From Acidimicrobiales bacterium (lineage in GTDB: Bacteria; Actinomycetota; Acidimicrobiia; Acidimicrobiales; Iamiaceae): a stretch of DNA of 64,000 nucleotides. Where the stretch lies: contig DASZTW010000007.1 of assembly GCA_035547835.1 (NCBI GenBank), forward strand, positions 124,001 to 188,000. Reading direction: 5' to 3'. The notes under the pieces were generated by a model. The model was not told the origin of the DNA, made no database searches, and saw only the letters and a program-made list of their open reading frames with translations. The translations under genes and the position numbers were made by a program. This document shows, piece after piece, positions 45,199-60,929 of the stretch (position 1 is the stretch's first letter; each line of letters begins with the position of its first letter).

Positions 45199-46368
45199 GT
45201 GAGTCGCGCACCGTTCCGTCTCGGCTACCAGCCGGGGCTCGACGGGCTTCGGGGCGTGTCGCTGCTGCTGATCATGGTGTTCCACAGCTTCTTGCTGTGG
45301 CCCGAGAGCTACGCACGAGGCGTCCCGGGGTCGTACCTCGCCGTCAACGTCTTCTTCGTGTTGAGCGGGTTCCTGATCACGTCGCTGCTGCTGGCCGAGC
45401 GCGAACGCAACGGACGGGTGGCGTTCGGCGCGTTCTACATGCGTCGGGTCCTGCGGCTGCTGCCGGCGCTCGCCCTCGTGTTCGGCGTCGACATCGTCTA
45501 CTTGCTGTCGACGCACCAGGCCATGCGGTCGCAGCTGTCGCTGATGGGGTGGGCAGGGGTGTACGCCTCGAACTGGATGCAGTGGGCCGGGCACGTCACC
45601 GACCCGGTGGCGAGCCTCACGTGGGGCCACACCTGGACGCTGTCCGTCGAAGAGCAGTTCTACCTGGTCTGGCCCACGTTGTTGCTGGTGGTGCTGATCC
45701 GCCGGATCCGGTTGGAAGTGGTCGGTGGCCTGCTCCTCGCTTGTGCCGTCGCGCTGACGGTGCTGCGGACAGTGGCCGCGTACCGCGTGAGCGGCGCAGG
45801 GGGCGCAGTGGCGCTGGCCGGACGCCTCGACCAGCAGATCGGCATGCGCACCGACTTCCGAGCCGACTCGCTGCTGTTGGGCGGCGTGGCCGCCATCGCG
45901 CTGCACGCGGGATGGCGACCCGGCCGCGGGTTGCGAGCGGTGGCCACCGCGCTGCTCGCTGCCTTGGTGGCCACCCAAGTGTGGGTGCGGCCCGAAGCGC
46001 GCTGGATGTACGGCTGGGGGTTCACGCTGTTCGACGCGGCGTTGGCGCTGCTGTGCGTGGCGCTGCTCGACCGGCGCTGGTTGCCCGCTGCGGCGTTCCG
46101 CTGGGGACCGCTCGTGTGGGTCGGCCGGGTCTCCTACGGCCTGTACTTGTGGCACCCCCCGGTGTTCATGGCGGTCACGCGGGCGATGCCGCATGGCCGG
46201 ATGGCAGCGCGGCTGCTGTGGGGCTGGGGCCTCACGTTCGTGTTGGCGGCGACGTCGTTCTACCTGGTGGAGCAACCGTTCCTGCGACTGAAGGGGCGTT
46301 GGGAGCGGCGGGGCGACCCATCACCGGCCGGGGGGCCCGTCGCCGTCACGCAGGGCGCGCTCCCGTGA
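45199..46368 (+). CDS. OafA-type membrane O-acyltransferase (acyltransferase 3 family), first of three
   Basis: About 389 aa with ~10 membrane helices. RLGYQPGLDGLRGVSLLLIM has the family DGLRG, VFHSFLLWP holds the essential His, NVFFVLSGFLITSLLLAE and RRVLRLLPALALV (arginine-rich loop) follow, and LSVEEQFYLVWP is the conserved SxExQFY segment. The C-terminal VGRVSYGLYLWHPPVFM is also typical. Moves an acyl group from the cytoplasm to an outer sugar. GTG 45199 is preferred; ATG 45160 is possible but overlaps the upstream gene. The stop overlaps the next gene (GTGA). Confidence 0.9.
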   Translation: MSRAPFRLGYQPGLDGLRGVSLLLIMVFHSFLLWPESYARGVPGSYLAVNVFFVLSGFLITSLLLAERERNGRVAFGAFYMRRVLRLLPALALVFGVDIVYLLSTHQAMRSQLSLMGWAGVYASNWMQWAGHVTDPVASLTWGHTWTLSVEEQFYLVWPTLLLVVLIRRIRLEVVGGLLLACAVALTVLRTVAAYRVSGAGGAVALAGRLDQQIGMRTDFRADSLLLGGVAAIALHAGWRPGRGLRAVATALLAALVATQVWVRPEARWMYGWGFTLFDAALALLCVALLDRRWLPAAAFRWGPLVWVGRVSYGLYLWHPPVFMAVTRAMPHGRMAARLLWGWGLTFVLAATSFYLVEQPFLRLKGRWERRGDPSPAGGPVAVTQGALP

Positions 46369-48137
46369 CGGACGAGGGCTCGGTGGCCAGCGCCACCGCC
46401 GACGCCGGCGCCGGGCCCGCCGGCGCGGCGATGCCGCCAAGGGCCGGGCGGCGGGTCGGGCCACGCGGTGCGTCCCTGATCCGGTCCGGTTGGCTCGCGG
46501 CGCTGGTGGCGGCGGCGCCAGCCGTGCTGAGCGGGCTGCGTGCGGTCACCGGGCGGTGGGCACCGGTCATCGACAACGGCGTGATCTCCGTGAAGGCGAG
46601 CGACGCCTGGGCCGGGCACCCCCCGCTGGTCGGGATCTACACCTCGCTCAGCTCGGCTGCCCACTGGCCGCATCACCTGTACCACCCGGGGCCGGCCGAG
46701 TTCTGGGCTATGGCGCCGATGCAGCGGCTGTTCGGACCATCGGGCATCGGGCTCGCGATCGGCGCGGCGTTGCTCGACGCGGTGGCGGCGGGCGGCACCG
46801 TCTGGCTGGTGCGCAAGTTCGGCGGTCCGTGGTTCGCCTGGGTGGCGGCCGCGCTGGTGGCGGTCATGTGCTGGTCGCTCGGCGGCCAAGTCCTGCACGA
46901 CCCGTGGAACCCGCATCTGGCGGTGCTACCGGGGCTGTTCGTCCTGGCCGCGGCGTGGCGGGTCGCCTCGGGCGACGTGCGGATGCTGCCCGTGCTGGCG
47001 GTCGCCGCCAGCGTCGTCGCCCAGCTGCACCTCACGTTCGTGTTGCCAGCGGTGGCGGTCAGCGCGGTGGCCGTGGCCGCGCTCGTTCGGTCGGCGCGCG
47101 TCAGGTCCGCAGCCGGCGGCGTGCGCTGGAGATGGCCCGTCGTGACCACGGCGGTACTGGTGCTGGCGGTGTGGTCGGGGCCGGTCATCGACCAGATCCA
47201 CGGGCGCGGGAACTTGGTGGGCCTGCTGCGAGCATCGGGTGCGTCGCCGACGCAACTCGGTGCGGGGGCCGCGCTGCGGGGCCTCGTGCACGCCACGTCG
47301 GTGCCGCCCGTGTGGTGGAGCGGCGTCGACGACCTGGTCCATCCCCAGCCAGGAGTTTCGGCGATCGACGTCGCCACCGCGGTGCTGGTGTGGCTGGTGC
47401 TCGCCACGCTGTTCGTGCGGGCCTGGCGGGCGCGCCGCCGCTCGATCGTGGTGGGGCTCGCGGTCGCCGTCACCGGCCTGCTTGCCGCCACCGTCACCGT
47501 GGCTCGGACGCCGGGCGAGTTCGGCTACCAGGAGCTGTTGTGGGCCCGACGGGTGTGGTGGCCAATGGCGGTGTTCCCTTGGATCGTCGCCGCGGCAGCG
47601 ATCGGCGCGGAGCTCGCCGCGCGGCCGTCCAACGCCCGCACGTCGCTGCGAGCGGGTCGGATGGCCGCGGCGGTAGCCGCAGTGGCCGCAGTGGTGGTCG
47701 TCGCGGCGACGTGGCCACGGCTCGGGGTGGCGCACGACTTCGGCTCCGCGGGCTTCGGTCCGGTCCGCCACCTCGGCGCGGCGGCCGTGCGCGCCACCGA
47801 TCGCGGTGAGCCGTGGGTCGTCGAGCGACGCGGCGAGTTCGCGTATTACGTCGTGGGGCCGGGTGTGGTGGCGCGCTTGGTCGCCGCTGGTCGCGACGTG
47901 CGCGTGGCGCCAGCGGCCAATCTCGACCTCGGCAGCCACCACGACCTGCCGCACGGCGCGCGAGGCACGGTGATCGTGGCCAGCGGGCCCGACGCCGCCG
48001 ACGTACCGCCCGGCTTCCATCAGGTGGCGAGGTGGGATCAGTCCACCGCCGGAAGTCCCTTTGATTCGTACCGTAGGACGATGTTCGTGATCCCGGTGGA
48101 GCCGGTCGCGGTGTTCGTGCGCGATCCGGGCCGCTGA
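46365..48137 (+). CDS. GT-C-like polytopic membrane protein, HPGP/PWNP paralogue 1
   Basis: 590 aa, about 10-11 predicted membrane helices after a ~35-residue disordered Ala/Gly N-terminus. First outer loop: DNGVISVKASDAWAGHPPLV then HLYHPGPAEFWAMAPMQRLF; later VLHDPWNPHLAVLPGLFVLA and VVAQLHLTFVLPAVAV. The soluble C-terminus (~110 residues) ends FVIPVEPVAVFVRDPGR. The arrangement (long first extracellular loop with acidic residue, many helices, soluble tail) is that of GT-C glycosyltransferases using polyprenyl-phospho-sugars. It matches two other proteins in this window (51055-52818, 58147-60198). Translationally coupled on both sides to acyltransferase genes. Not assigned to a named family. 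Confidence 0.72.
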   Translation: MTDEGSVASATADAGAGPAGAAMPPRAGRRVGPRGASLIRSGWLAALVAAAPAVLSGLRAVTGRWAPVIDNGVISVKASDAWAGHPPLVGIYTSLSSAAHWPHHLYHPGPAEFWAMAPMQRLFGPSGIGLAIGAALLDAVAAGGTVWLVRKFGGPWFAWVAAALVAVMCWSLGGQVLHDPWNPHLAVLPGLFVLAAAWRVASGDVRMLPVLAVAASVVAQLHLTFVLPAVAVSAVAVAALVRSARVRSAAGGVRWRWPVVTTAVLVLAVWSGPVIDQIHGRGNLVGLLRASGASPTQLGAGAALRGLVHATSVPPVWWSGVDDLVHPQPGVSAIDVATAVLVWLVLATLFVRAWRARRRSIVVGLAVAVTGLLAATVTVARTPGEFGYQELLWARRVWWPMAVFPWIVAAAAIGAELAARPSNARTSLRAGRMAAAVAAVAAVVVVAATWPRLGVAHDFGSAGFGPVRHLGAAAVRATDRGEPWVVERRGEFAYYVVGPGVVARLVAAGRDVRVAPAANLDLGSHHDLPHGARGTVIVASGPDAADVPPGFHQVARWDQSTAGSPFDSYRRTMFVIPVEPVAVFVRDPGR

Positions 48138-49354
48138 TGACGGGCGTCGACCCGGCGCCACGAGCCGCCGGTGACCCGGCCGAGACGCCGGCGCCCGCTC
48201 GGGGCCGCCTCGACGACCAGCCGCGGCCCCGACGGCTCGGCTACGTCCGGCCGCTCGACGGCCTGCGCGGCGTGGCGGTGCTCACGGTCGTCGCGTACCA
48301 CGCGGCCTTCCTCAGCCAGTCATGGGTCCGCAACCCTCTGCCGGGCGGCTTCCTCGGCGTCGACTTGTTCTTCGCCATCAGCGGCTTCTTGATCACAGCC
48401 GGGCTGATCGACGAGCTGCAGTCCCGCGGCCACGTCGGCTACGCGAACTTCTGGCAGCGCCGCATCCGGCGCCTGGTCCCGGCGCTCATGGCTCTGCTGG
48501 CCGCCGTGGCGGTGGTGATGGTCGGCACCGGGTGGCATCTGGTGTGGTTGATCCATGCCCGCCAGCTCACGACGGCGGAGTCGGTGCACGCCCTGGTCGG
48601 CACCGCCCTGTACGTGTCGAACTGGATGCAGGCGTGGCACATGCCGTATCCGGTCGAGCTCTCGCACTCGTGGTCGCTCGCAGTCGAGATGCAGTTCTAT
48701 CTGGTGTGGCCGTTGGTCGTGCTGGGTGCGGTGCGGGCTGGCTGGCGACGGAGCTGGCTGGTCGCCGTGCTGCTGGGCGGCTCGCTCGTGGCGGCCATCG
48801 TGCGATTGCTGTCGTGGTCGGGCCCCGCCAGCGCACTGCCGTTGTACATGCGGACCGACACCCGGGCCGACGTCATCCTGCTCGGCTGCGGCGGCGGGCT
48901 GGCCTACACCTGGCGCTGGGTCGGTGGGCGTTCGAGGGGGTGGCTGCGACCCGCGTCCCTCCTCGGCGGGCTCGTGCTCGTGGTCGTGTTCGTCGTGGCG
49001 AAGCAGGAAGCCGCCTGGCTCTACCGGGGCGGCTTCGTGTTGGTGGCGGCGGCGTCGACCGCGGTCATCACCGCCGTGACCGTGGAGCCGGAGTGGGGGC
49101 TGGGGCGCCTGCTGTCCCTGCGGCCGCTCGTGTGGATCGGGGAGCGCTCGTACTCGTTGTACTTGTGGCACTTGCCGATCTTCACGACGCTGGCGACGCA
49201 CTCGCGATGGCGGCCGCTACCCCGCCTTGTGCTGGCGCTGGTGCTCACCGTGGTGGCCAGCGAGGTGTCCTACCGACTGGTCGAGCGTCGCTTGCGAGCG
49301 CGTCCACGGCGGCTGGCGGCGCCCGACGCGTTGGAGATCACCCGCACCGCGTGA
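48137..49354 (+). CDS. OafA-type membrane O-acyltransferase, second of three
   Basis: 405 aa. YVRPLDGLRGVAVLTVVAYH carries DGLRG and the essential His; GGFLGVDLFFAISGFLITAG, NFWQRRIRRLVPALMALLA, SHSWSLAVEMQFYLVWPLVV and IGERSYSLYLWHLPIFTTLA are the remaining family blocks. About ten helices. The ATG overlaps the upstream stop (TGATG). Its 3' end overlaps the end of the convergent membrane-protein gene by 17 bases. Confidence 0.9.
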   Translation: MTGVDPAPRAAGDPAETPAPARGRLDDQPRPRRLGYVRPLDGLRGVAVLTVVAYHAAFLSQSWVRNPLPGGFLGVDLFFAISGFLITAGLIDELQSRGHVGYANFWQRRIRRLVPALMALLAAVAVVMVGTGWHLVWLIHARQLTTAESVHALVGTALYVSNWMQAWHMPYPVELSHSWSLAVEMQFYLVWPLVVLGAVRAGWRRSWLVAVLLGGSLVAAIVRLLSWSGPASALPLYMRTDTRADVILLGCGGGLAYTWRWVGGRSRGWLRPASLLGGLVLVVVFVVAKQEAAWLYRGGFVLVAAASTAVITAVTVEPEWGLGRLLSLRPLVWIGERSYSLYLWHLPIFTTLATHSRWRPLPRLVLALVLTVVASEVSYRLVERRLRARPRRLAAPDALEITRTA

Positions 49355-51071
49355 TCGTCGCGCCCGCGCCCTCGGCGTGTGCGGCCCACCGGAGGTCGGC
49401 GCCGGGTCCGGCCGGCAATGCCAGGGTGGCGGTGGCGCCGGCCGGCACCGTGCCGATGGGCGATGCGGCCCCCGCCCCGGCGAGGCGCCGGAGCGTGACG
49501 GCTGCCTTGCCGGCACCCGCGTGCACGACGAGTGTCGTCCCGGGTGGCACGGTCACCGTTGCCTCGACCGTGCTGGTCGAGGCCGAACTGCCCATCGGGC
49601 ACGCGCCGGCGGCACGGAGGCGGATGCCCAGATCGGCGATGAGCGACTGGTCGGCTCGGCGTCGGTCAGCGGGCAGGCCGAGGTTGCTGGTGTCGTGGGG
49701 GAGCGGCGGTGCGCCCACACGGCGGATCAAGTCGAGGTAGCCACCGGTGGTGACCGGCACGAAGTTTATCGGCACCACCCGGCTGCGTCTCGCTCGGTCA
49801 CCGGCGAGCCGTACGCCGAGCGTCGCCGTGCGGGATGCCGCCTGGTACGCGAGCTGGTCGTGGCGATACGTGCGCACGTCATCGACCAGGTGCCACCCGT
49901 TGGCCACCAGGAGCACGAACACCACGACCAGCCCGGCGCCGGCAGCGAGCGGTGCGGGTCTGCCCGTGCGGCGTCTGCGGGCGCCGGACGTCTCCCGCCC
50001 TGCCCAGATCGGTCCTGCCATGGCAGCCGCGGCGCTGAGGAGGAACACCGAGTTGAGGAAGAGATAGCGGTCGGTGGCGGGCGCGATGCGGGGGAGCGGT
50101 ACACCGCTCGCGCCGATCCCCTCGCGCCCGATCGCGGTCAACGCGACGAAGGACACGAACGCGGTCAAGGTCGACGCCGCACGCGGCCCGAAGGTGTGCC
50201 AGCGGGTCACCGACGCGGCGACCAGCGCCACAAAGGCCACGAGCAGCGCCCACCCGCCTGGCGTCCACCCCGCGCACAGCGCGGCGAACGACGCGAGCAC
50301 CTCGGTCCCGGCGAAGTGCAGCAGTGAGCCCGCGCCACCAGGCTGCGCCGTCGTGGTGTGAAAGCCGATCCACCACGCCAACCACACTGCCACCGGCACG
50401 GCATGCGCCGCGACCGTTGCGAGCCCGAGGTCGCGTCGCGACCAACGCCATACCAACTCGACGGCGACGGCCACCGCGACCACGACGCCGACGGCCGAGC
50501 TCGCGAGCGCCACCGCCAACAGCAACGGACCGACCACGAGCGCAGCAGGCCCCGGCCGACCCGGGTCGCGCGTGTGATCGAGCGCCAGCCAGATGCCGCA
50601 GCCGCAGGCGGCGGGCACCGTGAAGTTGATGAGGAGCGGGAACAACAGCGTGAGCTTGGCGGCGGCGCTCCACAGCAGCGTGATGCCCACGAGCGCGCCG
50701 ATCGCAGGGGTGGCTCGTCGCGCCGCGTGCCAGCCCGCCGCCGCCGCGAGCGCCACATAGGCCACGAGCCCGATCGCTCGGTACGGGCCGTAGTGTCCGA
50801 GCCCCACCGAGCGGGTCAGCGCCAGGTACACGGCTTGGGGCACGAGGGACAGGTGCCCGTTGAACGGTTGGAGGAGATCACCGCGGTTGGCGAGGATCGC
50901 GATGTTCCACTCGTCGGAGAAGATCCCGAAACCGCGCCCCATCCACCACACCCAGCCGACCAGCGTGCCCGCCGCGAGCGCGAACGCCCCGAGCGGCAGC
51001 TGCGCCCCACCACGCCTGAGTGGCGCCGGGCGACCGGCACGGCGCAGGTCGGGCTCAGCCCTGGGCTGCAT
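49338..51071 (-). CDS. polytopic membrane protein of the envelope cluster, unknown
   Basis: 577 aa, ~11 predicted helices, then a ~165-residue soluble C-terminal domain with a beta-rich end (VEATVTVPPGTTLVVHAGAG; ATATLALPAGPGADLRWAAH). The N-terminal outer loop contains FGIFSDEWNIAILANRGDLL, an acidic pair after the first helix as in GT-C enzymes, and NGHLSLVPQAVYLALTRSVG. It lacks the HPGP/PWNP signatures of the neighbouring paralogues. It starts inside the 3' end of the upstream gene (17-base overlap), so they are one operon. A glycosyltransferase role is an inference. Confidence 0.65.
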   Translation of the reverse strand: MQPRAEPDLRRAGRPAPLRRGGAQLPLGAFALAAGTLVGWVWWMGRGFGIFSDEWNIAILANRGDLLQPFNGHLSLVPQAVYLALTRSVGLGHYGPYRAIGLVAYVALAAAAGWHAARRATPAIGALVGITLLWSAAAKLTLLFPLLINFTVPAACGCGIWLALDHTRDPGRPGPAALVVGPLLLAVALASSAVGVVVAVAVAVELVWRWSRRDLGLATVAAHAVPVAVWLAWWIGFHTTTAQPGGAGSLLHFAGTEVLASFAALCAGWTPGGWALLVAFVALVAASVTRWHTFGPRAASTLTAFVSFVALTAIGREGIGASGVPLPRIAPATDRYLFLNSVFLLSAAAAMAGPIWAGRETSGARRRRTGRPAPLAAGAGLVVVFVLLVANGWHLVDDVRTYRHDQLAYQAASRTATLGVRLAGDRARRSRVVPINFVPVTTGGYLDLIRRVGAPPLPHDTSNLGLPADRRRADQSLIADLGIRLRAAGACPMGSSASTSTVEATVTVPPGTTLVVHAGAGKAAVTLRRLAGAGAASPIGTVPAGATATLALPAGPGADLRWAAHAEGAGATITRCG

Positions 51072-52818
51072 CGGCAGGAAGCTCGAGGACGGCAGTGGGC
51101 AATCCCATGGCGATCATCGGGCCAATGGCGGCGATGACGGACCTCGGCACGTGCACGTCGTTGGCGATCGCCCACAGCGACTGGTCGACTTGGGGCACGA
51201 GCCGCGCGAGGCCGGCGGCACGCAGCTCGACAATCGCGCGGGCGCGCAGCCGCGCGTAGCGCCGACGCTGGGCCGAGCTCCGAGGGTCGACCTGCACCAG
51301 CAGCCGGGCGCCGGGCTTTGCTTTCCACGTGGCGATCCGCGGTCCGGACACGACGGCCAGCACCGCGGTCGCCTGCGAACGGCGCAGCACGCGGTGGGCC
51401 TCGACAGCGACGCGCTGGATCGGTGGCGCGCCAGCGGTGAACCCGCGCCGCTCCAACTCGAGGATGAGGCCGTACGCGTCGCCGCCGAGGCTGATCGGGT
51501 CGTCGAACGTGACCTGGTAGCGGCCGGACCGGTCGAGCTGGCGGACCACCGGTGGCACCAACGTGGCCATCTGCCGCGAGTACGGCTCGTAGGGCGGGCG
51601 GACGAAAGCGGCCGACCACGACGAGGTCGTCACCGCCACCACCACGACCACGACCCCGGAACCCACCAGCGCAGGTCGCAGCTGCTCGGCGCGAGCAGGA
51701 AGTCGGGCCTCGGCCACCAGCGCGATCGCGGTGGCGACGGTGGCGGCGACCATCGTGGCGGTCACCACCCAGACCCACATCACCAAGTACGCGAAGAGCT
51801 GGCCGAAGATCCGCGAGACCGCGAGCCAGGTGGACACGACAGCCGCCAGCACCGTCACATGGAGGGCGAACAGCTCGGGATGGCGCGCGCGCCGCAGCCA
51901 GCTGAGGGCCGCCGCGACCGCCCAGACCACGAGCAGCGCCAAGCCCGGCATCACGCTGGTGTGCAGGCCGGCGCGGCTGGTCAGCCAGCCACCCAGGGGG
52001 TTCAACAACCGGAGCACGTCGGCCAGACCCGTCACCGGGCCGATCGCGGCTTCCGGTGGGTGCCGGAAGTAGTCCAACAAGATGTGCAGGTTTCCGGGGT
52101 GGTGCACCGCCTGGTCGACGATCGGCGGGATCCACAGCACGACCCCCACGCCGGCGGCGACGGTGACGGGTCGCCACCAGCCGGCCCGGCGGGGCCACAC
52201 GGTGAAGGCCAGGGCCACGACGCCGAGTGCGCCCACCGGCGCCAAGTAGCCCACGTGGCACTGCACGCAGAACGTGGCCGTGGCCACCAGCGCGGGCCAC
52301 ATCTGCCGGTCCCCGGCGATGACCGCCCACGCCAGCGCCGTCGTCGCGGCGAACCACAGCAAGGGGAGGAAGGGGTTCCACGGCTCGATCAGCGTGGCGA
52401 TCCCGAAGCCGTGGATGAGACCGACAACGACGAGCGTCGCCCCGAGCATGCCGACCCACCCGGCGACGCGCCGAGCCGCGGCGATGGTCGCCGCCGCGCC
52501 GAGCGCGTGCAAGGTCAGGACGGACGTCTCGAGCGCCCAGGGTGTGGCGCCGAAGAGGCGGTACACCGGCCACAGCGCCCAGTACGCGAGCGGTCCCGGG
52601 TGGCTGCCGCGCTCGGCGATCGTGCCGATCCGCCCGGCCGCGCCGATCAGCGGCGGGTGGCTCCACAAGCTGCGCACCCGCATCTCGGCCTGTGCCAAGT
52701 CGCCGGTCGGCCACCAGTGACGGCCGCGCAGCGCCACTGCCGTCACCACGAACGGCGCGGCCACCAGCGCTGCGAGCCCCACAGCGCGCAGCGCGGAGGG
52801 CCGGAACGCACGTCGCAT
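51055..52818 (-). CDS. GT-C-like polytopic membrane protein, HPGP/PWNP paralogue 2
   Basis: 587 aa. Same plan as the products at 46365 and 58147: WWPTGDLAQAEMRVRSLWSH then HPPLIGAAG, ERGSHPGPLAYWALWPVYRL, LIEPWNPFLPLLWFAATTAL and FCVQCHVGYLAPVGALGVVA. About 11 helices followed by a soluble C-terminus of ~120 residues (AVLAVVSGPRIATWKAKPGA). Likely transfers a sugar at the outer face of the membrane, by analogy only. A TATGCT hexamer 9 nt upstream of the ATG is its -10; the promoter is divergent from the acyltransferase at 52883. Confidence 0.72.
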   Translation of the reverse strand: MRRAFRPSALRAVGLAALVAAPFVVTAVALRGRHWWPTGDLAQAEMRVRSLWSHPPLIGAAGRIGTIAERGSHPGPLAYWALWPVYRLFGATPWALETSVLTLHALGAAATIAAARRVAGWVGMLGATLVVVGLIHGFGIATLIEPWNPFLPLLWFAATTALAWAVIAGDRQMWPALVATATFCVQCHVGYLAPVGALGVVALAFTVWPRRAGWWRPVTVAAGVGVVLWIPPIVDQAVHHPGNLHILLDYFRHPPEAAIGPVTGLADVLRLLNPLGGWLTSRAGLHTSVMPGLALLVVWAVAAALSWLRRARHPELFALHVTVLAAVVSTWLAVSRIFGQLFAYLVMWVWVVTATMVAATVATAIALVAEARLPARAEQLRPALVGSGVVVVVVAVTTSSWSAAFVRPPYEPYSRQMATLVPPVVRQLDRSGRYQVTFDDPISLGGDAYGLILELERRGFTAGAPPIQRVAVEAHRVLRRSQATAVLAVVSGPRIATWKAKPGARLLVQVDPRSSAQRRRYARLRARAIVELRAAGLARLVPQVDQSLWAIANDVHVPRSVIAAIGPMIAMGLPTAVLELPADAAQG

Positions 52819-52827
52819 GGTCGTGCG

Positions 52828-52874
52828 AGCATACGGGACCGCTCCCGTGCCCGATGGGCTCGCCTGTCTACGAT
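52828..52874. promoter_or_regulatory. divergent near-leaderless promoters
   Basis: TATGCT on the minus strand (52833 to 52828) is 9 nt from the ATG at 52818. TACGAT on the plus strand (52869-52874) is 8 nt from the ATG at 52883. Only 64 bp separate the two start codons. Confidence 0.5.
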
Positions 52875-52882
52875 CGGCCCGG

Positions 52883-54127
52883 ATGACGACGCCCGCAGCC
52901 GAGTCCCGTCCGGCCGGGCGTCCACCCGATCAGGAGCAGGCCACCGCATCTGCGGGGACTGGTGGGCGCCTCCAGTTGCCGGCCCTCGACGGGTACCGCG
53001 CGATGGCTGCGCTGGCGGTGTTGGTCACCCACGTCTCGTTCGCCACGGGCTTCAACGGCCACGGCGCGCTCGGCGCCGCGCTGGCGCGCCTCGACGTGGG
53101 CGTGCCGATCTTCTTCGTGCTGTCGGGATTCTTGTTGTACCGCCCGTTCGTCGCCGCCCGGCGAACGGCGCGACCGGGTCCCGACATGGCCCGCTACGCA
53201 CGGCGACGCGTGGCCCGCATCTATCCCGCTTACTGGGTCGTGCTCGTCGTCGTGTTGTTGCAGACGCGCGAGCTGGCCAACGGCGTGCGAGGTCTGCTCG
53301 CGCAGATCCTGCTGCTGCACACCTGGTGGCCCGACACGGTGTTCGGACCGCCGGCCACCAGCACAGGTGGGGTCACCTTCCACCCCCTCGGTCAGGCGTG
53401 GACGCTCGCGGCCGAGGTCGTCTTCTATCTCGCCTTGCCCTTCTGGGCGCTGCTGATCCGCCGTCTCACGACGTCGGCCGCGCCGGCGCACCGCTGGCGA
53501 GCGGAAGCGGTCGGGCTCGTGGTGCTCGTGGCCGTCGCCCAGGCGTGGCGCGTGTGGATGGCGCACGCTGCGCTCAACGCATCCCAAGTCGCGGCGCGGT
53601 CGTCGTGGGTGTTCAACCAACTCGACCACTTCGCGTTCGGCATGGCCCTGGCCGTGATCAGCGTCGAGCTCGTCGCCCGCGGCCGCACCCACTTGCCGGG
53701 GATGGCCGCGCCCTGGCTGCCGGTTGCCTGCTGGACGGCCGCTGCCGCGTGCTTCTACGGGGCGATCCACTGGGCCGGCCTGCACCCCAACCAGGTCCTG
53801 TACACGAACCACCAGCAGATGGCGCGCCAGTGGTTCTACGGCGGCACGGCCGTGTTCGCGCTCCTGCCGGCCATGCTCGCCCCACCCGGCACAGGATGGG
53901 TTGCCCGCCTGTTCGCCAGCCCGCCGCTCCGGGCGTTGGGGCGAGTCTCGTACGGGATCTACTTGTGGCAAGAGCTGGTCCTGTTCGACTGGCTGCGGCT
54001 GCGAGACCAGAAGGTGTTCACCGGCTCGTTCCCCGCGACGCTCGCCGTGGTGCTGGTGGTGACCGTGGTCGTGGCGACGGTCAGTTGGTTCGTGGTGGAG
54101 CGGCCGCTGCTGCACCGCGCACGCTGA
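52883..54127 (+). CDS. OafA-type membrane O-acyltransferase, third of three
   Basis: 414 aa. LPALDGYRAMAALAVLVTHV has a DGYRA variant of the family DGLRG motif with the essential His; GVPIFFVLSGFLLYRPFVAA, RRVARIYPAYWVVLVVV (RRxxRIYPxYW), QAWTLAAEVVFYLALPFWAL and LGRVSYGIYLWQELVLFDWL follow. In the last block the usual WH is WQ. The start at 52883 is set by TACGAT 8 nt upstream; the frame open to 52817 would cross both promoters. Confidence 0.9.
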   Translation: MTTPAAESRPAGRPPDQEQATASAGTGGRLQLPALDGYRAMAALAVLVTHVSFATGFNGHGALGAALARLDVGVPIFFVLSGFLLYRPFVAARRTARPGPDMARYARRRVARIYPAYWVVLVVVLLQTRELANGVRGLLAQILLLHTWWPDTVFGPPATSTGGVTFHPLGQAWTLAAEVVFYLALPFWALLIRRLTTSAAPAHRWRAEAVGLVVLVAVAQAWRVWMAHAALNASQVAARSSWVFNQLDHFAFGMALAVISVELVARGRTHLPGMAAPWLPVACWTAAAACFYGAIHWAGLHPNQVLYTNHQQMARQWFYGGTAVFALLPAMLAPPGTGWVARLFASPPLRALGRVSYGIYLWQELVLFDWLRLRDQKVFTGSFPATLAVVLVVTVVVATVSWFVVERPLLHRAR

Positions 54128-54182
54128 GCGCCGCGCCGTGCACGTGCGGGATCGTGTCGCCAGTGCGGCGAGAGCGCGCCGG

Positions 54183-54188
54183 TAGCAT
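54183..54188 (+). promoter_or_regulatory. -10 element TAGCAT of the GT-C-like gene at 54196
   Basis: TAGCAT is followed by 7 nt and an in-frame TTG at 54196. The in-frame ATG at 54187 lies inside the hexamer, so the leaderless rule predicts TTG as the true start. Confidence 0.45.
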
Positions 54189-54195
54189 GCGCCGG

Positions 54196-55989
54196 TTGCC
54201 CGAACGGCCCGACACGGAATCCCCAACCGCTGAGCTGTCGCCCGCGGGCGACGGTTCCGGCGCGGGCCAGACGATCGAGCGCGGCAGGTGGGCCGACGTT
54301 GCCGCGGTCACGGTGTTGGTGGCGGCGTTCGCGCTGCCGTTGCGCGGGCTGTTGCGCTACCAGGGACCGCCGATGGAGGAAGGGTTCATGTTGACCTTCC
54401 CCGAGTTGGTCCTGCACGGGGCGGTCCCGAACCGCGACTTCCTCCATCTGTACGGGCCCGGGAGCCTGTGGGCGCTGGCGGGCGCGTACAAGGTGTTCGG
54501 CGCCTCGCTGGCCACCGAGCGGTGGTTCGGCCTGCTCCAGCACATGGGCATCGTGTTCGGCGTCTACGCGATCGCCCGGCGGTGGGGCCGCTGGCTGGCG
54601 CTCGTGTGCGGCCTCACGTCGCTCGTCATCATCATCTCGCCGGTCGGCCTCACGGCGATGGCGTGGAACGGGGCGGTGGCCCTGGGGGTCTGGGGTGTCT
54701 GGACGGCGCTCGGGGCGCACCGAGCCGTCGCACGCGCGGATGGCTGCGGCGATGCGGCTGCCGCGACCGACGAGCGCGTGGAGCAACACATCCGCCGCAT
54801 GTTGTTCGCCGGTGGCCTGCTCGGCGGGTTCGCGCTGCTGTTCCGGCCCGACCTCATCTTGGCCGTGGCCCTCGGGCTCGGTGGCGCGGCGTGGGGCCTC
54901 AGCCGCCGTCGAGTGCGCACCTTGGTGGTCGGCGCGCTGGTGGGCGTGGCACCGATGGCGGTCCATGTGGCGCTCGCCGGGCCGGGCCACTCGTTCCAGG
55001 GCATGGTCATCGATCCGGTCTTCCGGCTGCGCGCCGGGCGCTCGCTGCCGGTGCCGCCGTCGTGGAGCCACCTCGACGGGTTCCTCCAACGAGCGGCCGG
55101 TCTCCAACGGCCCGGTTGGCCGCTTCCGGCGCTCCACGCATCGAACCAGGTCTTCTTGTGGTTCTTCCTCGGGCCGCTGTCCGCACTGTTCGTCGGCGCG
55201 GTCGGGCTGTGGGCGTACCGCCGCGACCAGCGAGACGTGCGCGCGCGGATCCTGCTCGCGGCGGGCCTCTTCGGCGTCGGCATGCTGACCCAAGCCGTGC
55301 AGCGTCCCGACACCGCGCATTTCGCCTGGGTCAGTTGCGTGCCCCTCGCGCTGGTGCCGGTGGCGGTCACAGAAGTCCTCCGCGCCCGGCGGGGACGCGG
55401 CGGGGAGCAGCGGAAGCTCCAAGTGGGCAGGGCGCTCGGCGCAGCGGTGATCGTCGTGGTGCTGGGCGGCGTGATCCCGCACTTCACCCTTCGCAGCTAC
55501 GTCGATCTCAGCGAGCAGAGCTTCGGCCGCAACGTCTTCGGCTACCCGGTGCACCGCGACGGGCGGGTCGTCTACTACGGATCGGCGCAGATCGCTTCCG
55601 CCGCCAACGCGCTGTTGCGCGACCTCGACCGCCGCGACCCGAAGGCCGGTCAGCGGCTGTTCGTCGGACCGATCGACTTGCGCCGCACGCCCTACAGCGA
55701 CGCGTTCTTCTACTTCTTGTATCCGAAGCTGAAGCCGGCGACGTACTTCATCGAGATGGACCCGTTCGACTCCGATCCCGGCTCCCGGCTGGCGCACGAC
55801 GTCGCTTCGGCCGACTGGTTGATCCTCTCGGGCGTCTGGTCGAACTGGGACGAGCCCAACACGTCGAGGAACTACGGCTCGAACGTCCCGAACTACGTGG
55901 TGCGCACGCGGTTCTGCCTGCTCGGCTCGTACGGGCATCGAACCGACCGCGCAGAGCCGCTGTTCGAGCTCTGGCGTCGCTGCCGCTGA
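54196..55989 (+). CDS. GT-C/GT39-like polytopic membrane protein
   Basis: About 597 aa. After a ~40-residue soluble start comes a membrane helix (VAAVTVLVAAFALPLRGLL) and the outer loop YQGPPMEEGFMLTFPELVLH then NRDFLHLYGPGSLWALAGAY. The EE pair and the D(F)xxxYGPG block resemble GT39/dolichyl-phosphate-mannose mannosyltransferases. About nine more helices follow (AMAWNGAVALGVWGVWTALG, FRPDLILAVALGLGGAAWGL) and a soluble C-terminal domain of ~150 residues with a VVYYGSAQIASAANALLRDL segment. Likely uses a polyprenyl-phospho-sugar. The start is TTG 54196 (or ATG 54187). Confidence 0.75.
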   Translation: MPERPDTESPTAELSPAGDGSGAGQTIERGRWADVAAVTVLVAAFALPLRGLLRYQGPPMEEGFMLTFPELVLHGAVPNRDFLHLYGPGSLWALAGAYKVFGASLATERWFGLLQHMGIVFGVYAIARRWGRWLALVCGLTSLVIIISPVGLTAMAWNGAVALGVWGVWTALGAHRAVARADGCGDAAAATDERVEQHIRRMLFAGGLLGGFALLFRPDLILAVALGLGGAAWGLSRRRVRTLVVGALVGVAPMAVHVALAGPGHSFQGMVIDPVFRLRAGRSLPVPPSWSHLDGFLQRAAGLQRPGWPLPALHASNQVFLWFFLGPLSALFVGAVGLWAYRRDQRDVRARILLAAGLFGVGMLTQAVQRPDTAHFAWVSCVPLALVPVAVTEVLRARRGRGGEQRKLQVGRALGAAVIVVVLGGVIPHFTLRSYVDLSEQSFGRNVFGYPVHRDGRVVYYGSAQIASAANALLRDLDRRDPKAGQRLFVGPIDLRRTPYSDAFFYFLYPKLKPATYFIEMDPFDSDPGSRLAHDVASADWLILSGVWSNWDEPNTSRNYGSNVPNYVVRTRFCLLGSYGHRTDRAEPLFELWRRCR

Positions 55990-56023
55990 CCCGCCCAGCA
56001 CCTGGGCTGCCGGGGTGGTCCGG

Positions 56024-56029
56024 TAATGT
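56024..56029 (+). promoter_or_regulatory. -10 element TAATGT of the polyprenol-phosphate glycosyltransferase gene
   Basis: TAATGT is followed by 7 nt and the ATG at 56037. It drives a run of four tightly coupled genes to 60929. Confidence 0.55.
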
Positions 56030-56036
56030 CGCTCCG

Positions 56037-56798
56037 ATGCCCACGCCCGACGTGACGTCTGCGCCCAGCCCGGCATCGACGGTCGTCGTCGTCCCGACGT
56101 TCCAGGAACGAGAGAACATCGAGCCGTTCCTGCGCGCCGTGCGCGCCGCTGCGCCCGACGTCGACGTCTTGATCGTCGACGACAACAGCCCCGACGGCAC
56201 CGCCGACCTCGCCGAGAAGCTGGCCGACGACGTCGGCCGGGTAGAGGTGTTGCGTCGTGCGGTGAAAGACGGGCTCGGCAACGCCTACCGCGCCGGCTTC
56301 GCGGTGGCCCTTGACCGCGGCTACGACCAGATCATCCAGATGGACGCGGACCTGTCGCACGACCCCGGTTCCATCGCCGACCTCCGTGCCCGTCTCGACC
56401 AGGGGGCCGACGTCGCGATCGGCTCGCGCTATGTGCCGGGCGGCGCCACCCCGCACTGGCCGCTCCGGCGCCGCCTGCTGTCGCGGTGGGGCAACCGCTA
56501 CACCACGCTGCTGCTCGGCTTGCCGGTGCGCGATGCCACCTCGGGGTTTCGCGCGTACAAGGCAACAACGCTTCGCGAGATCCGCTTCGACACCACCCGC
56601 GCCAACGGCTACGCCTTCCAGATGGAAGTTGCGGCACGGCTCGTCGACCACCACTGCCAGGTCGAAGAAGTGCCGATCACGTTCACCGACCGGGTGCGCG
56701 GCACGTCGAAGATGTCGGCCGCGATCATGGTCGAATCGCTGGCCTTGGCCACCCGCTGGGGGATCCGCAACCGCCTGGGCCGGCTCCGGCACCGTTGA
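56037..56798 (+). CDS. polyprenol monophosphomannose synthase-like GT2 enzyme (Ppm1/Dpm1 type)
   Basis: 253 aa. GT-A fold: TVVVVPTFQERENIEPFLRA (nucleotide binding), VLIVDDNSPDGTADLAEKL, YDQIIQMDADLSHDPGSI with the metal-binding DAD, VAIGSRYVPGG, GLPVRDATSGFRAYK and ANGYAFQMEVAARLVDHHCQ with VEEVPITFTDRVRGTSKM, the Dpm1-type signature. Makes polyprenyl-phospho-mannose (or a related sugar) from GDP-sugar. This is the lipid-linked donor that the nearby GT-C proteins would need. No C-terminal helices, so it is the soluble type. The stop overlaps the next start (TTGA). Confidence 0.9.
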   Translation: MPTPDVTSAPSPASTVVVVPTFQERENIEPFLRAVRAAAPDVDVLIVDDNSPDGTADLAEKLADDVGRVEVLRRAVKDGLGNAYRAGFAVALDRGYDQIIQMDADLSHDPGSIADLRARLDQGADVAIGSRYVPGGATPHWPLRRRLLSRWGNRYTTLLLGLPVRDATSGFRAYKATTLREIRFDTTRANGYAFQMEVAARLVDHHCQVEEVPITFTDRVRGTSKMSAAIMVESLALATRWGIRNRLGRLRHR

Positions 56799-58150
56799 CA
56801 ACGACCTTCCAGACTGGCGCGCAAGTCCGTGCCAGTACCGGCGGGCCCGGCGCGGAGCGCGCGCCGAGATGGTTCTGGATCGGCCTCGCCGGGGTCGTGC
56901 TGGTCGCCTTGATCTTGCGATTGTGGTGGGCCGTATACGCGTCAAAGACGCCGATCGGGCTGTTCGACCCCGCTCGCTACCTCCGATCCGCGCAGGCCAT
57001 CGCCCACGGCTACGGCTACGTCGAACCGTTCACCGCCAAGGCGACCGCCTACTACCCGCCGGGGTTTCCGTGGTTCTTCGGGATCGTCACGTGGATCGCC
57101 GATCACAACCCGGTCGTCGGTGATCCTGTCCGGCTCATGGCGTACGTCCAAGCCCTGCTGGGCGCAGCGAGCGTCGGGGCTGTCGGCGTGATCGGATGGC
57201 GGGTGCGCTCGGCGGCCGCCGGCGTGTTCGGCGCGCTGTTGGTGGCGTTGTACCCGAATCTGATCTTCCTGACCGCGGCGATGCTGTCCGAGACGCTGTG
57301 CATCGCCTTGCTGACCGGCGCGCTGGCCGTGTTGTGGTGGCGGCCCAGCCGGGTGCCGCTGTCGAGCGGCCGGCTGGTGGCGTTCTCGGTGCTGTTCGCA
57401 CTCGGCGTCATGGTCCGGCCGATCTCGCTGCCGGTCCTCGTCGTCGTCCTCGCCTTGTGGTGGCGGGCGTGGGGCAACCGCGCGGCCTTCCTGCGAGCAG
57501 CAGGGGTCGCCATCGGCGTGCTCGTGGTGGTGATGGGTGCCTGGACCGTCCGCAACGCGATCCGGATGCACGCGTTCGTCCCGATCTCGACCAACACCGG
57601 CGACAACCTTTGCATCGGGCACAGCCCAGGCGCGACCGGCGCTTTCCGCTTGACCATGGAGTGCGCCACCAAACAAGGCGTGATGCAAGGGCCGGCCGGT
57701 GAGATCGCGCACGACCGCCAGACCCAGGCGCGGGCCCGCAAGTGGATCGCCGGCCACTTGTCGCGCGAGCCCTGGCTGACGTGGCGGCGCCTCTATTTCA
57801 TGTTCCAGCACGATCACGACGGCCTGCTCGGCGTCACGTCGTACCGCACCGACCACTGGATGCCGGACGCCACCTGGAACTCGCTCAGCCGCATCGCTGA
57901 CGACTACGGCGCCGTGATTCTCGGCTTGGGGATCGTCGGGTCTGCGTTGTTGCTGTACGGGCACCGCGACGGGCAGGCGCTCGTCGCGATCACTGCGGTG
58001 CTGCTGGCTGTTCCGCTGTGCTTCTTCGGCGACGCTCGCTTCAAGGACCCCGCCATGCCGCTGCTGGCGCTCGCGGCCGCGTGCACGCTCGTCGAGCCGT
58101 TCGAGTGGGCCGTCCGGCACCGCGCGAGGTCGGATCGGGTTCGCCGATGA
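56795..58150 (+). CDS. GT39/PMT-like glycosyltransferase
   Basis: 451 aa with ~10 membrane helices. First outer loop: TPIGLFDPARYLRSAQAIAH (acidic residue) and ATAYYPPGFPWFFGIVTWI, with the YxPPG(F/Y)P motif common in bacterial PMT_2/ArnT-like enzymes. Later LYPNLIFLTAAMLSETLCIA (xLSE motif, also typical), MVRPISLPVLVVVLALWW and WTVRNAIRMHAFVPISTNTG. Translation starts at TTG 56795 inside the stop of the upstream synthase gene (TTGA). The supply of lipid-linked sugar from that synthase fits its use as donor. Confidence 0.82.
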   Translation: MTTTFQTGAQVRASTGGPGAERAPRWFWIGLAGVVLVALILRLWWAVYASKTPIGLFDPARYLRSAQAIAHGYGYVEPFTAKATAYYPPGFPWFFGIVTWIADHNPVVGDPVRLMAYVQALLGAASVGAVGVIGWRVRSAAAGVFGALLVALYPNLIFLTAAMLSETLCIALLTGALAVLWWRPSRVPLSSGRLVAFSVLFALGVMVRPISLPVLVVVLALWWRAWGNRAAFLRAAGVAIGVLVVVMGAWTVRNAIRMHAFVPISTNTGDNLCIGHSPGATGAFRLTMECATKQGVMQGPAGEIAHDRQTQARARKWIAGHLSREPWLTWRRLYFMFQHDHDGLLGVTSYRTDHWMPDATWNSLSRIADDYGAVILGLGIVGSALLLYGHRDGQALVAITAVLLAVPLCFFGDARFKDPAMPLLALAAACTLVEPFEWAVRHRARSDRVRR

Positions 58151-60198
58151 GGCCGATCGAGGATCCGCCGGTCCCGTCTCGCGATCGTGCGGATCGAGTG
58201 TGGTTCGTGTTGGCGCTCGCGTTGGTGGCGGTGCCGATCGCCGTCGCGGCGGGCCGCGCCGTGGCCGACCACTGGTACCCGGCATCCGACGACGCACTGT
58301 TCACGCTCCGGGCCCTCGACGTGTTCTCCGCTCATCCGCCGCTGCTGGGCACCTGGTCGTCGGGCTCGGGCTGGTCCGGGACGCAGTTCAACCACCCGGG
58401 TCCGATGCTCTTCTACTTGCTGGCGGTGCCCGTCCGGGTCCTCGGAGTCGCGCCGGGCACGGCCATCGGGACCGCGGCCGTCAACGTCGTCGCGGTGGTG
58501 ACCGTCGTCTGGCTCGCCCGCCGACGAGCCGGGTCGGTGTTCGCGCTGGCATCGGCGGCCGCAGTCGCCGGGCTCGAGTGGTCGATGGGCGCGCCGCAGC
58601 TGTACGACCCGTGGAACCCCCATGCCGCCACGCTGCCGTTCTGCGCGCTGTTGTTTGCTGCGTGGTCAGTGGTCGACGGTGACTGGAGCGCGCTGCCCGT
58701 GATGGCGTTGGCGGGCTCCCTCGCCCTCCAACTCCACCTGTCGTACGTGATCCTCGTGCCGGTCATCGTGCTCGCGGCTATTGCCGGCGCCGCGGTGGTG
58801 CCGAGGCGCCGGGCGAGCGCCGATGTCCTCTCGGACTCGCGGTCCGCGGTTCGCGTCCGGGGGCCGAGTTTGGGCCGGTGGATCGTCGTGGCCGCCGGGT
58901 TGACCGCCGTCGTGTGGTTCCCCCCGATCTGGCAGCAGGCCACTGGGCACCCCGGGAACGTGAGCGCGCTGGTCGACGCGCGAGGCCACGGCGGCCCGCA
59001 CCCGATCGGGCTCTCGCGAGGGGTGCGCACGGTGGCCGCGGTGGTGGCCCTCCCGCCCGGCTGGTTCCCACCTGGCTGGGACCGTCCGACCTTCGAGACG
59101 GTGCGCCTCGGGCAGGTACGGGGCTTCGAGACGGGCGCCACCGTTGGCGACGTTGCGCTCGGCGTGGTCGTCATCTTGCTGCTCGCAGGGGTGTGGGCCG
59201 GCCGCTCCGACGACCGGTCGACGTCGGTGGCGGGTTGTGCGACCGCGTTGGTGGCGGTCGCGGCTGCGATCGCGTCGGCGTCACAAGCCGCTTCCCCGTA
59301 CGACTCGATCGACTCGTACGTCCGATGGCTGTGGCCGATCGCCCTGTTCTGCTGGCTGCAACTGGCGCTGATCGCGGTGCCTCGCCTTGCACGCTGGGCG
59401 CGCCGCCACCGTCCGTCGCTCGGACCGACGCTTCGACTCGCCGCGGCGGGTGTTGCGGCGGTCGTGGGGGTGGTCGGTGTCGTGGGAGCGTTCGGCGGCT
59501 CCGACGCGGGGAGCGGATCGATCCCGTGGGCACGCACGCCCTCCCGGGCCGCCGCCAGCGCGGCGTGGAAGTTACGTGGCCGTGGGCCGGTGCTGATCCA
59601 CCAGCGCTTCGACATCGGCGGCTACGCGGTCGAACCGTCGGTGTTGGTCACGTTGGTGCGGGCGGGGGTGGGCTTCTATGTCGACGAGGATGTCATGGCG
59701 CACCAGGTCGGCACCCACCGTCGCTACCGCAACCAGCCGTCGGTCCGCACCATCGTCTGGTTCGGCTCGGGTGACCTGGCGCTGCAGGCGGTGCCCCCCG
59801 GCGCGCAGCGGCTACTGCTGTACCGCGGGCTCAGCCGGGTCGAGGAGGCCCGCTACCGCAAGCTCCAAGCGGCACTCGTCCGCGGTATGCGCAACGAGGG
59901 CCTTCGCGTGTCGGCGCACGGCCGCGCCCTGGAGCGCCTGGCATCGTTCGCGCCCACAGTGCAGGCGATCCGGCGAGCCCCCGTCGACCCGACCCCGCTC
60001 CTGCAAGGCTTCAGCCCCCAGACGATCGTGACGAACCACCTCGTCGACGAGCACGATCCGCTCTGGCCCGTGCTCGTCCAGTACGCCCCGCTCGCCACCC
60101 GGTGGAACACGGCAACCGTGGCGATGTTCGCGGCGCCGCTCGGCACGCCGGGCGCGCCCGCACCGAACCCGGCCGACACGAAGCAGGCCGTCGCATGA
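58147..60198 (+). CDS. GT-C-like polytopic membrane protein, HPGP/PWNP paralogue 3
   Basis: 683 aa, the longest of the three. WYPASDDALFTLRALDVFSA then HPPLLGTWSS, FNHPGPMLFYLLAVPVRVLG, LYDPWNPHAATLPFCALLFA and ALQLHLSYVILVPVIVLAAI match the other two paralogues in order and spacing. About 11 helices, then a ~200-residue soluble C-terminus. The DD in the first loop is the likely catalytic or metal-binding pair in a GT-C fold. ATG overlapping the upstream stop (ATGA), and its own stop overlaps the next ATG. Confidence 0.72.
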   Translation: MRPIEDPPVPSRDRADRVWFVLALALVAVPIAVAAGRAVADHWYPASDDALFTLRALDVFSAHPPLLGTWSSGSGWSGTQFNHPGPMLFYLLAVPVRVLGVAPGTAIGTAAVNVVAVVTVVWLARRRAGSVFALASAAAVAGLEWSMGAPQLYDPWNPHAATLPFCALLFAAWSVVDGDWSALPVMALAGSLALQLHLSYVILVPVIVLAAIAGAAVVPRRRASADVLSDSRSAVRVRGPSLGRWIVVAAGLTAVVWFPPIWQQATGHPGNVSALVDARGHGGPHPIGLSRGVRTVAAVVALPPGWFPPGWDRPTFETVRLGQVRGFETGATVGDVALGVVVILLLAGVWAGRSDDRSTSVAGCATALVAVAAAIASASQAASPYDSIDSYVRWLWPIALFCWLQLALIAVPRLARWARRHRPSLGPTLRLAAAGVAAVVGVVGVVGAFGGSDAGSGSIPWARTPSRAAASAAWKLRGRGPVLIHQRFDIGGYAVEPSVLVTLVRAGVGFYVDEDVMAHQVGTHRRYRNQPSVRTIVWFGSGDLALQAVPPGAQRLLLYRGLSRVEEARYRKLQAALVRGMRNEGLRVSAHGRALERLASFAPTVQAIRRAPVDPTPLLQGFSPQTIVTNHLVDEHDPLWPVLVQYAPLATRWNTATVAMFAAPLGTPGAPAPNPADTKQAVA

Positions 60199-60929
60199 GG
60201 CGCCCCCGCACGCTGTCGGCATTCCTGCCCGCGTGGAACGAAGCGGGCAACATCGACCGTGTGGTGGGCGCGTTGCTCGACCAACTGCGGCAACTGGGCC
60301 TCGCGGAGTTCGAGGTCATCGTCGTCGACGACGGATCCACCGACGGCACGGCCGACTTCGTCGCAGCGTGGGCGGAGCGCGACGACAGGGTCCGGCTGGT
60401 CCGCCACGACCACAACCAGGGCTATGGCGCGGCGTTGCGAACGGGCTTCGGCGCAGCGCGCTTCGAGCACGTCTTCTTCACCGACGCCGATGGTCAGTTC
60501 GACTTCGCCGACCTGCCCGGGTTCGTGGAACGGGCCGCGTACGCGGACGCAGTGATCGGCTATCGGGCCGTCCGCGGCGATCCGCCGCTCCGACGCTGGA
60601 CCGGGCATGCGTGGACGGCGATCGTGGACGCCTTGTTCGGCTTGCGCATCCGCGACGTCGACTGCGCGTTCAAGCTGCTCCGCACTGCGGACCTCGCCCG
60701 CATCGGACCGCTGGAGTCGACCGGGGCGGTGGTCTCGGCCGAGCTGCTGTGGCGCCTGGACCGCGCCGGCTGCACCATCGAGCAGCGCCCGGTCCGCCAT
60801 CTGCCCCGCGTCGCTGGCGAGGCGTCAGGTGGGTCGCCGAGGGTGATCGCACGGGCGGTACGCGAGCTCGTCCGCCTCCGTCTCGGTCTCGGTCCCGGTC
60901 TCGGTCCCCACCCTCGCCCCGCCCCCTGA
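60195..60929 (+). CDS. GT2-family glycosyltransferase
   Basis: 244 aa. RTLSAFLPAWNEAGNIDRVV, EVIVVDDGSTDGTADFVAAW, VRLVRHDHNQGYGAALRTGF and HVFFTDADGQFDFADLPGF with the DAD metal site define the GT-A core. IRDVDCAFKLLRTADLARI and STGAVVSAELLWRLDRAGCT complete it. Probably makes a polyprenyl-phospho-sugar or adds a sugar in the cytoplasm. The last ~15 residues (LRLGLGPGLGPHPRP) come from a short GGTCTC/GGTCCC repeat and look like a slipped extension. Two copies of the 45-bp palindrome follow. Confidence 0.88.
   Translation: MRRPRTLSAFLPAWNEAGNIDRVVGALLDQLRQLGLAEFEVIVVDDGSTDGTADFVAAWAERDDRVRLVRHDHNQGYGAALRTGFGAARFEHVFFTDADGQFDFADLPGFVERAAYADAVIGYRAVRGDPPLRRWTGHAWTAIVDALFGLRIRDVDCAFKLLRTADLARIGPLESTGAVVSAELLWRLDRAGCTIEQRPVRHLPRVAGEASGGSPRVIARAVRELVRLRLGLGPGLGPHPRPAP

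Follow-up and report, generated by a model that had tools for sequence, protein, structure and literature searches.

How does a bacterium of the class Acidimicrobiia build its outer glycan, a structure of which, to our knowledge, little seems to be known? The question is raised by a 64,000-nucleotide stretch of an Acidimicrobiales genome of the family Iamiaceae (GenBank assembly GCA_035547835.1, contig DASZTW010000007.1, positions 124,001 to 188,000 of the forward strand), referred to here as the window, whose coordinates are used throughout. Encoded in it are three membrane proteins, P0001, P0002 and P0003, for which a first-pass annotation, made from the sequence without database searches, had proposed a GT-C-like glycosyltransferase (GT) identity. 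We consider it likely that all three are GT-C_A transferases that use polyprenyl-phosphate sugars and act on an envelope glycan. The open-access papers searched included none on the motifs of these proteins or on GT-C or polyprenyl mannosyltransferases of Acidimicrobiia, and broader searches, among the matches listed, gave no mention of Acidimicrobiia or Ilumatobacter. The family they form offers a way into the synthesis of the outer glycan in this class.

P0001 (46365–48137, plus strand; 590 residues, GTG start) shares 4 nt with the acyltransferase open reading frame (ORF) that precedes it and 1 nt with the acyltransferase ORF that follows. P0002 (51055–52818, minus strand) comprises 587 residues. 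P0003 (58147–60198, plus strand; 683 residues) overlaps the preceding ORF by 4 nt, and the following gene by another 4 nt if that gene starts at 60195. The GC contents at third codon positions are 0.893, 0.913 and 0.883, respectively. All three pairs are linked by BLASTP: P0001 with P0002 (E 1e-18, 34% identity over 232 residues), P0001 with P0003 (E 2e-35, 33% over 496) and P0002 with P0003 (E 2e-24, 32% over 286).

The same motifs follow one another in each protein: HPPL.G, HPGP with aromatic residues after it (EFW in P0001, AYW in P0002, LFY in P0003), (D/E)PWNP, W..x.GD, and Q.H..(F/Y), the last reading QLHLTF, QCHVGY and QLHLSY. A regular expression for this chain, written with spacing limits of our own and leaving out the W..GD block, matches exactly three of the 344 six-frame segments of at least 100 residues in the window, namely P0001, P0002 and P0003, and none of 9,000 shuffled copies. 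BLASTP, the alignment and the regular expression therefore bear out the reading of the three ORFs as paralogues sharing an ordered chain of motifs. The strict wording fits just 8 of the 140 rows of the family alignment because the wider family holds the positions and varies the letters.

Fold and sequence family of the three proteins

A comparison of predicted structures with GT-C folds had been proposed beforehand as a check, and the models of P0002 and P0003 both show a GT-C transmembrane core; for P0001 the core is predicted by homology. The AlphaFold model of P0002 (alignment of 105 sequences) has a mean pLDDT of 95.2 and a pTM of 0.94, and that of P0003 (61 sequences) a pLDDT of 87.2 and a pTM of 0.90. 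Ranks 1–25 of the Foldseek list for P0002 are GT-C enzymes or complexes containing one, and its matches include ArnT (PDB 5f15, E 3.1e-8), OST, ALG9, ALG12, DPY19 and AftA; P0003 matches ArnT with an E of 1.0e-4. Superposition on ArnT with VIA-align gives Z 16.9 for P0002 (434 residues aligned, 4.9 Å) and Z 17.6 for P0003 (435 residues, 5.5 Å). Following the last long helices, both models have a mixed α/β C-terminal region, which is predicted to be soluble. P0001 ends earlier than the other two in the alignment.

The highest Z for P0002, 18.7 (358 residues aligned, 4.3 Å), is with chain B of the yeast Pmt1–Pmt2 complex. This likeness to Pmt1–Pmt2 and Pmt4 (GT39) concerns the membrane core, spanning P0002 residues 2–407 with the C-terminal region outside, and no sequence match goes with it. 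It could be taken to mean that the three attach the first sugar to secreted proteins, as protein O-glycosyltransferases of the Pmt1/Pmt2 kind, a reading also favoured by the two types of the family, described below, which often stand side by side and recall Pmt1–Pmt2 pairs, and by the HPPL of the first loop, which we take to be reminiscent of the PMT loop. We nevertheless regard protein O-glycosylation as improbable: with up to 11 matches per genome (some of which may be pieces) and a locus holding acyltransferases, a GT4 and an AftD-like gene, a polysaccharide fits better, and a PMT_2 protein is already present in the locus.

The position expected of a catalytic residue is occupied by an acidic side chain throughout the family: D stands there in 135 of the 140 rows and E in the other 5. 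Similarly conserved are N243 (140 of 140) and H188 (139 of 140), to which N271 and H197 of P0003 correspond. The acidic residue aligns as D70 in P0001 (codon 46572–46574, plus strand), D40 in P0002 (52699–52701, minus strand) and D48 in P0003 (58288–58290, plus strand). In the models it opens the first helix after transmembrane helix 1 (TM1), with D40 as residue 2 of helix 39–49 and D48 as residue 1 of helix 48–57. A statement in PMC12041299 places an essential Asp at the tip of juxtamembrane (JM) helix 1 in all GT-C_A enzymes. As modelled, the acidic residue at the JM1 tip is where GT-C_A enzymes hold their catalytic Asp, and D40 and D48 are accordingly named here as predicted catalytic residues, as is D70, from its homologous position in the alignment. 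On the basis of the models, P0002 and P0003 can be assigned with high confidence to the GT-C_A glycosyltransferases, and homology suggests the same for P0001.

By sequence, the family appears to be unnamed. With E limits of 10 for Pfam, 1 for NCBIfam and 0.1 for PHROGs, none of these libraries gave a match for P0001, P0002 or P0003, and neither P0003 nor the family profile hit a GT among PDB sequences, in agreement with the earlier view that no described family could be assigned; the family escapes all the annotation libraries tested. PF11847 (GT-C_AftD) matches none of the three, its match at 2.6e-87 being to the protein of a neighbouring gene (38571–43037), and a profile comparison of the family with this AftD-like protein gave no match. 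None of the three reaches the curated cut-off of PMT_2 (PF13231); of 30 family members compared with this model at an E limit of 1, three gave weak hits, the best at 1.5e-4.

A remote link to PMT_2 emerges from profile comparison. Aligned by hhalign with four PMT_2 proteins, the window's own included, family profile A4 gives a probability of 90 and an E of 1.6e-6; W35 and D40 of the family pair with W and D of the PMT_2 W-LDEA stretch, and SHPGPLAYW pairs with GHPPLYYW, with one gap. The link spans the first loop and the next helix. This pairing makes HPGP, and not HPPL, the likely equivalent of the PPL-Y box of PMT_2; HPPL.G would then be an extra conserved segment in the first loop. ArnT (GT83) and the PMT_2 proteins are similar to the family in their overall fold with a C-terminal α/β region, and in a first-loop acidic residue followed by an (H/K)PPL-YW-like box, paired with HPGP-xx-FW of the family. 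They differ in that the window proteins match no Pfam model and in the further HPPL.G stretch that the family carries before its HPGP box. The GT-C-like character suggested in the first pass is thus supported by the fold of P0002 and P0003, by the acidic residue at the JM1 tip and by the PMT_2 profile match. Fold and mechanism class are known ones, and what is new is an unnamed sequence family within them.

Two types, their history and their distribution

The family divides into two types. A midpoint-rooted FastTree of the 140 rows places 91 in type I and 49 in type II, and the branch separating the two sets has a support of 100 in an IQ-TREE analysis of 46 rows. Type I rows carry R63 (90 of 91), the H of HPGP (91), the N of W-N-P (90) and Y344 (88); among type II rows, S63 is found in 43 of 49, N replaces H73 of HPGP in 29, Q replaces N148 of PWNP in 33 and H344 is present in 38. 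P0002 belongs to type I, and P0003, together with a fourth copy on another contig of the same genome, to type II. P0001 is type II by motif; with each tree rooted at its midpoint, FastTree assigns it to the type II half and IQ-TREE, along with one other long row (L017), to the type I half. Unrooted, it forms a long branch between the types, and its place is unsure.

This divergence, along with a short C-terminal region and the frequent proximity of types I and II, raises the idea that certain copies, and P0001 in particular, serve as partners of the others without being catalytic themselves. The acidic residue, HPPL.G, HPGP, DPWNP, Q.H and the invariant N are all retained in P0001, however, and we give the idea very little weight.

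Local amplification to three copies, as first proposed for this locus, is not supported by the trees. Forcing the three window copies into one clade costs 299 log units (IQ-TREE, 46 rows; approximately unbiased test, p-AU 0.00024), and they also lie apart in the 140-row FastTree, a set that holds a few genes twice (for example, L007/L054 and L008/L056) and in which long branches meet. Owing to the rejection of a single clade, we regard the window copies as old lineages in one locus, without recent amplification. A sister pair of P0001 and P0003, named as a hypothesis after the first tree had been seen, is rejected at a cost of 45 log units (p-AU 0.0069). The modelled type I and type II structures provide a handle for testing how GT-C enzymes specialise.

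A real local amplification is seen on a public Acidimicrobiia contig (L085:1914-13935), where four type I copies within 12 kb form one clade.

Members of the family were found in 23 of 24 genomes of the same GTDB family (source genome included), in 8 of 37 genomes from the rest of the order sample and in 34 of 148 genomes of the class sample (E 1e-10). Two samples of other classes of the phylum gave, among the matches listed, 0 of 136 (E 1e-6) and 0 of 224 (E 1e-4). Acidimicrobiia was the sole class with members among the genomes sampled. The genome searches scored at most 5–21 candidates per genome, so that copy numbers and absences are lower bounds.

A pattern scan across 84,980 species returned 122 stretches; relatives are encoded by 71 of them, which lie at 70 loci. 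The record labels of these loci are Actinobacteria or Acidimicrobiia and its members, bar one metagenome-assembled genome (MAG) of Thermoanaerobacterales; three records carry the improbable label Bifidobacterium breve. The four sequences bearing the latter two labels (L055, L081, L097 and L069) group with Acidimicrobiia members, and the labels therefore look wrong.

Donor synthases and the proposed glycan pathway

Two GT2 genes of the locus are candidates for supplying a lipid-linked donor. The first (56037–56798, plus strand) has dolichol monophosphate mannose (DPM) synthase as its best PDB match (5mlz, E 1.3e-30). The second (60195–60929, plus strand, start chosen), a candidate second polyprenyl-phosphate-sugar synthase, adjoins P0003 and is ArnC-like, its best PDB match being the undecaprenyl-phosphate Ara4FN transferase (E 9.7e-10). 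Relatives of the DPM-like protein are encoded in 39 of the 70 related loci at E 1e-8, and in 32 at E<1e-70; those of the second GT2 are encoded in 37 (E 1e-8). Each query matches 1 of 20 control stretches at E 1e-8, the controls having been picked by us at round coordinates in six family-carrying genomes. The related loci also encode relatives of the large conserved protein GTC54 (34 of 70), the GT4 (27), any of the three acyltransferases (28) and the AftD-like protein (10); GTC54, GT4 and the acyltransferases are found in 0 of the 20 controls. The first-pass description of a setting amid lipid-linked-sugar enzymes agrees with the GT2 matches here and with their recurrence in related loci.

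The DPM-like gene stands directly upstream of a type I gene on the same strand in 17 of 70 loci. Types I and II are adjacent in 29 of 70 (16 codirectional within 60 nt, 5 convergent within 200 nt), with distances taken from the last sense codon to a script-chosen start and types called by motif, a procedure that leaves 5 of the 140 rows unassigned or at odds with the tree. In L042 and L043 the type I and type II genes overlap. The pattern scan relied on 10 aligned sequences with a bias towards type I, so that this linkage is seen from type I genes, and many of the loci stop close to the gene. The window arrangement, in which type I diverges from acyltransferase-GTC54(-DPM), is kept in locus L098 and, to the extent that its contig covers it, in L077. 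That types I and II form a heterodimer or a consecutive pair, with a DPM-synthase-like enzyme of their own, on an undescribed glycan of the class is a tentative idea that we would not yet favour.

In the pathway that we propose, a cytoplasmic GT2 (the DPM-synthase-like enzyme, the ArnC-like one or both) would charge polyprenyl phosphate with a sugar, for which mannose or another hexose is most likely. The lipid-phosphate sugar would be flipped and then bound by the GT-C enzyme, in which the JM1 Asp would act as catalytic base on a hydroxyl of the acceptor. The conserved HPGP, PW(N/Q)P, Q.H and N positions may contribute to the pocket, and the acceptor may be handled by the C-terminal domain. 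The transfer would be one step in building an extracytoplasmic glycan of the envelope; with three acyltransferase-3 genes in the locus, this glycan is probably acylated as well. As old separate lineages, the copies would probably carry out different steps.

Three-component periplasmic glycosylation, in the passages of Kelly et al. 2024 (PMC11127046) that describe it, combines a polyprenyl-phosphate-sugar synthase, a flippase and a GT-C enzyme. The window resembles the systems described in those passages in having a GT2 synthase-like gene beside a GT-C gene, and differs from them in that its locus holds several GT-C genes and that a GtrA-type protein is encoded on another contig.

Linkage to the DPM-like synthase leads us to a polyprenyl-phosphate hexose donor, most likely mannose, an assignment from genomic context in which we have moderate confidence. 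An arabinose donor retains some probability because of the AftD-like neighbour. Under this alternative, the three proteins would be arabinofuranosyl- or other pentofuranosyltransferases using decaprenyl-phosphate-pentose, making arabinan as mycobacterial AftA, AftB, AftD and Emb do. The latter share the GT-C fold, AftA appears among the structural matches (Z 15.5 against P0002 and 14.1 against P0003), and the AftD-like gene (PF11847, E 2.6e-87) is in the same locus, with the relatives in 10 of 70 related loci counted above. The GT2 most often linked is DPM-synthase-like, however; AftA, AftD, Emb and AftB score below ArnT, with Z values too close to decide, and the family profile finds no link to the local AftD-like protein. 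We judge arabinan synthesis by the three proteins unlikely, and prefer their assignment to GT-C_A transferases with a polyprenyl-phosphate hexose donor.

Several observations weigh against this assignment. No sequence-level match to any characterised enzyme was obtained with P0003 alone or with the family profile: phmmer with P0003 against PDB sequences gave a single match (E 0.55), which is no GT, and the best match of the 105-sequence profile (E 0.024) is no GT either. The hhalign comparison is weak against 13 stronger PMT_2 proteins (probability 58, E 9.9e-5). The Foldseek list for P0003 is weaker than that for P0002, since four matches alone have an E of 0.001 or less and rank 10 is taken by a protein outside GT-C. 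Similarity to a GT2 does not determine which sugar is carried, and the AftD-like neighbour points to arabinose for at least part of the glycan. No flippase was identified in the locus, where families other than GtrA, represented by the one protein on another contig, were not sought.

Other genes of the locus

The locus runs from 38571 to about 64447, counted beyond the window end. To its left are genes for DNA repair, metabolism, transport and hydrolases (ten chosen ORFs scanned), and to its right MFS, acyl-CoA-type and ABC-transporter genes; with flanking genes of these other kinds, the glycan locus measures about 26 kb. Library scans also place a GT4, a methyltransferase and a flavin adenine dinucleotide (FAD) oxidoreductase in it.

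At the left end is the AftD-like GT-C protein (38571–43037, minus strand), which carries an F5/8-type C domain and raises the question of arabinan in this class. The three acyltransferase-3 genes (PF01757), all on the plus strand, lie before P0001 (45160–46368), after P0001 (48137–49354) and divergent from P0002 (52817–54127). P0006, a membrane-type protein (49338-51071, minus strand), overlaps P0002 by 17 nt; its best Pfam E is 0.19, it has no NCBIfam match and its relatives are encoded in 0 of the 70 related loci. P0005, the gene of which ends just inside P0003 (56867–58150, start provisional, plus strand), is GT-C-like, with matches to Glyco_transf_22 (E 0.0077) and an LA_3751-type model (E 3e-5), both below cut-off. 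The PMT_2 protein (PF13231; 62843–63998, plus strand) runs beyond the window end.

Between the third acyltransferase and the DPM-like GT2 is GTC54 (54187–55989, plus strand), which matches neither Pfam nor NCBIfam and is 44–53% identical to 25 relatives. By eye, the first loop of GTC54 resembles that of GT-C proteins, but comparison of its profile with PMT_2 gave no match (probability 7). The C-terminal regions of our family and of the GTC54 family match in profile comparison (probability 94, E 1.4e-7), which suggests a shared domain. At one related locus (L053:1-7000), several pieces match GTC54 and may reflect decay, several copies or frameshift errors of a MAG.

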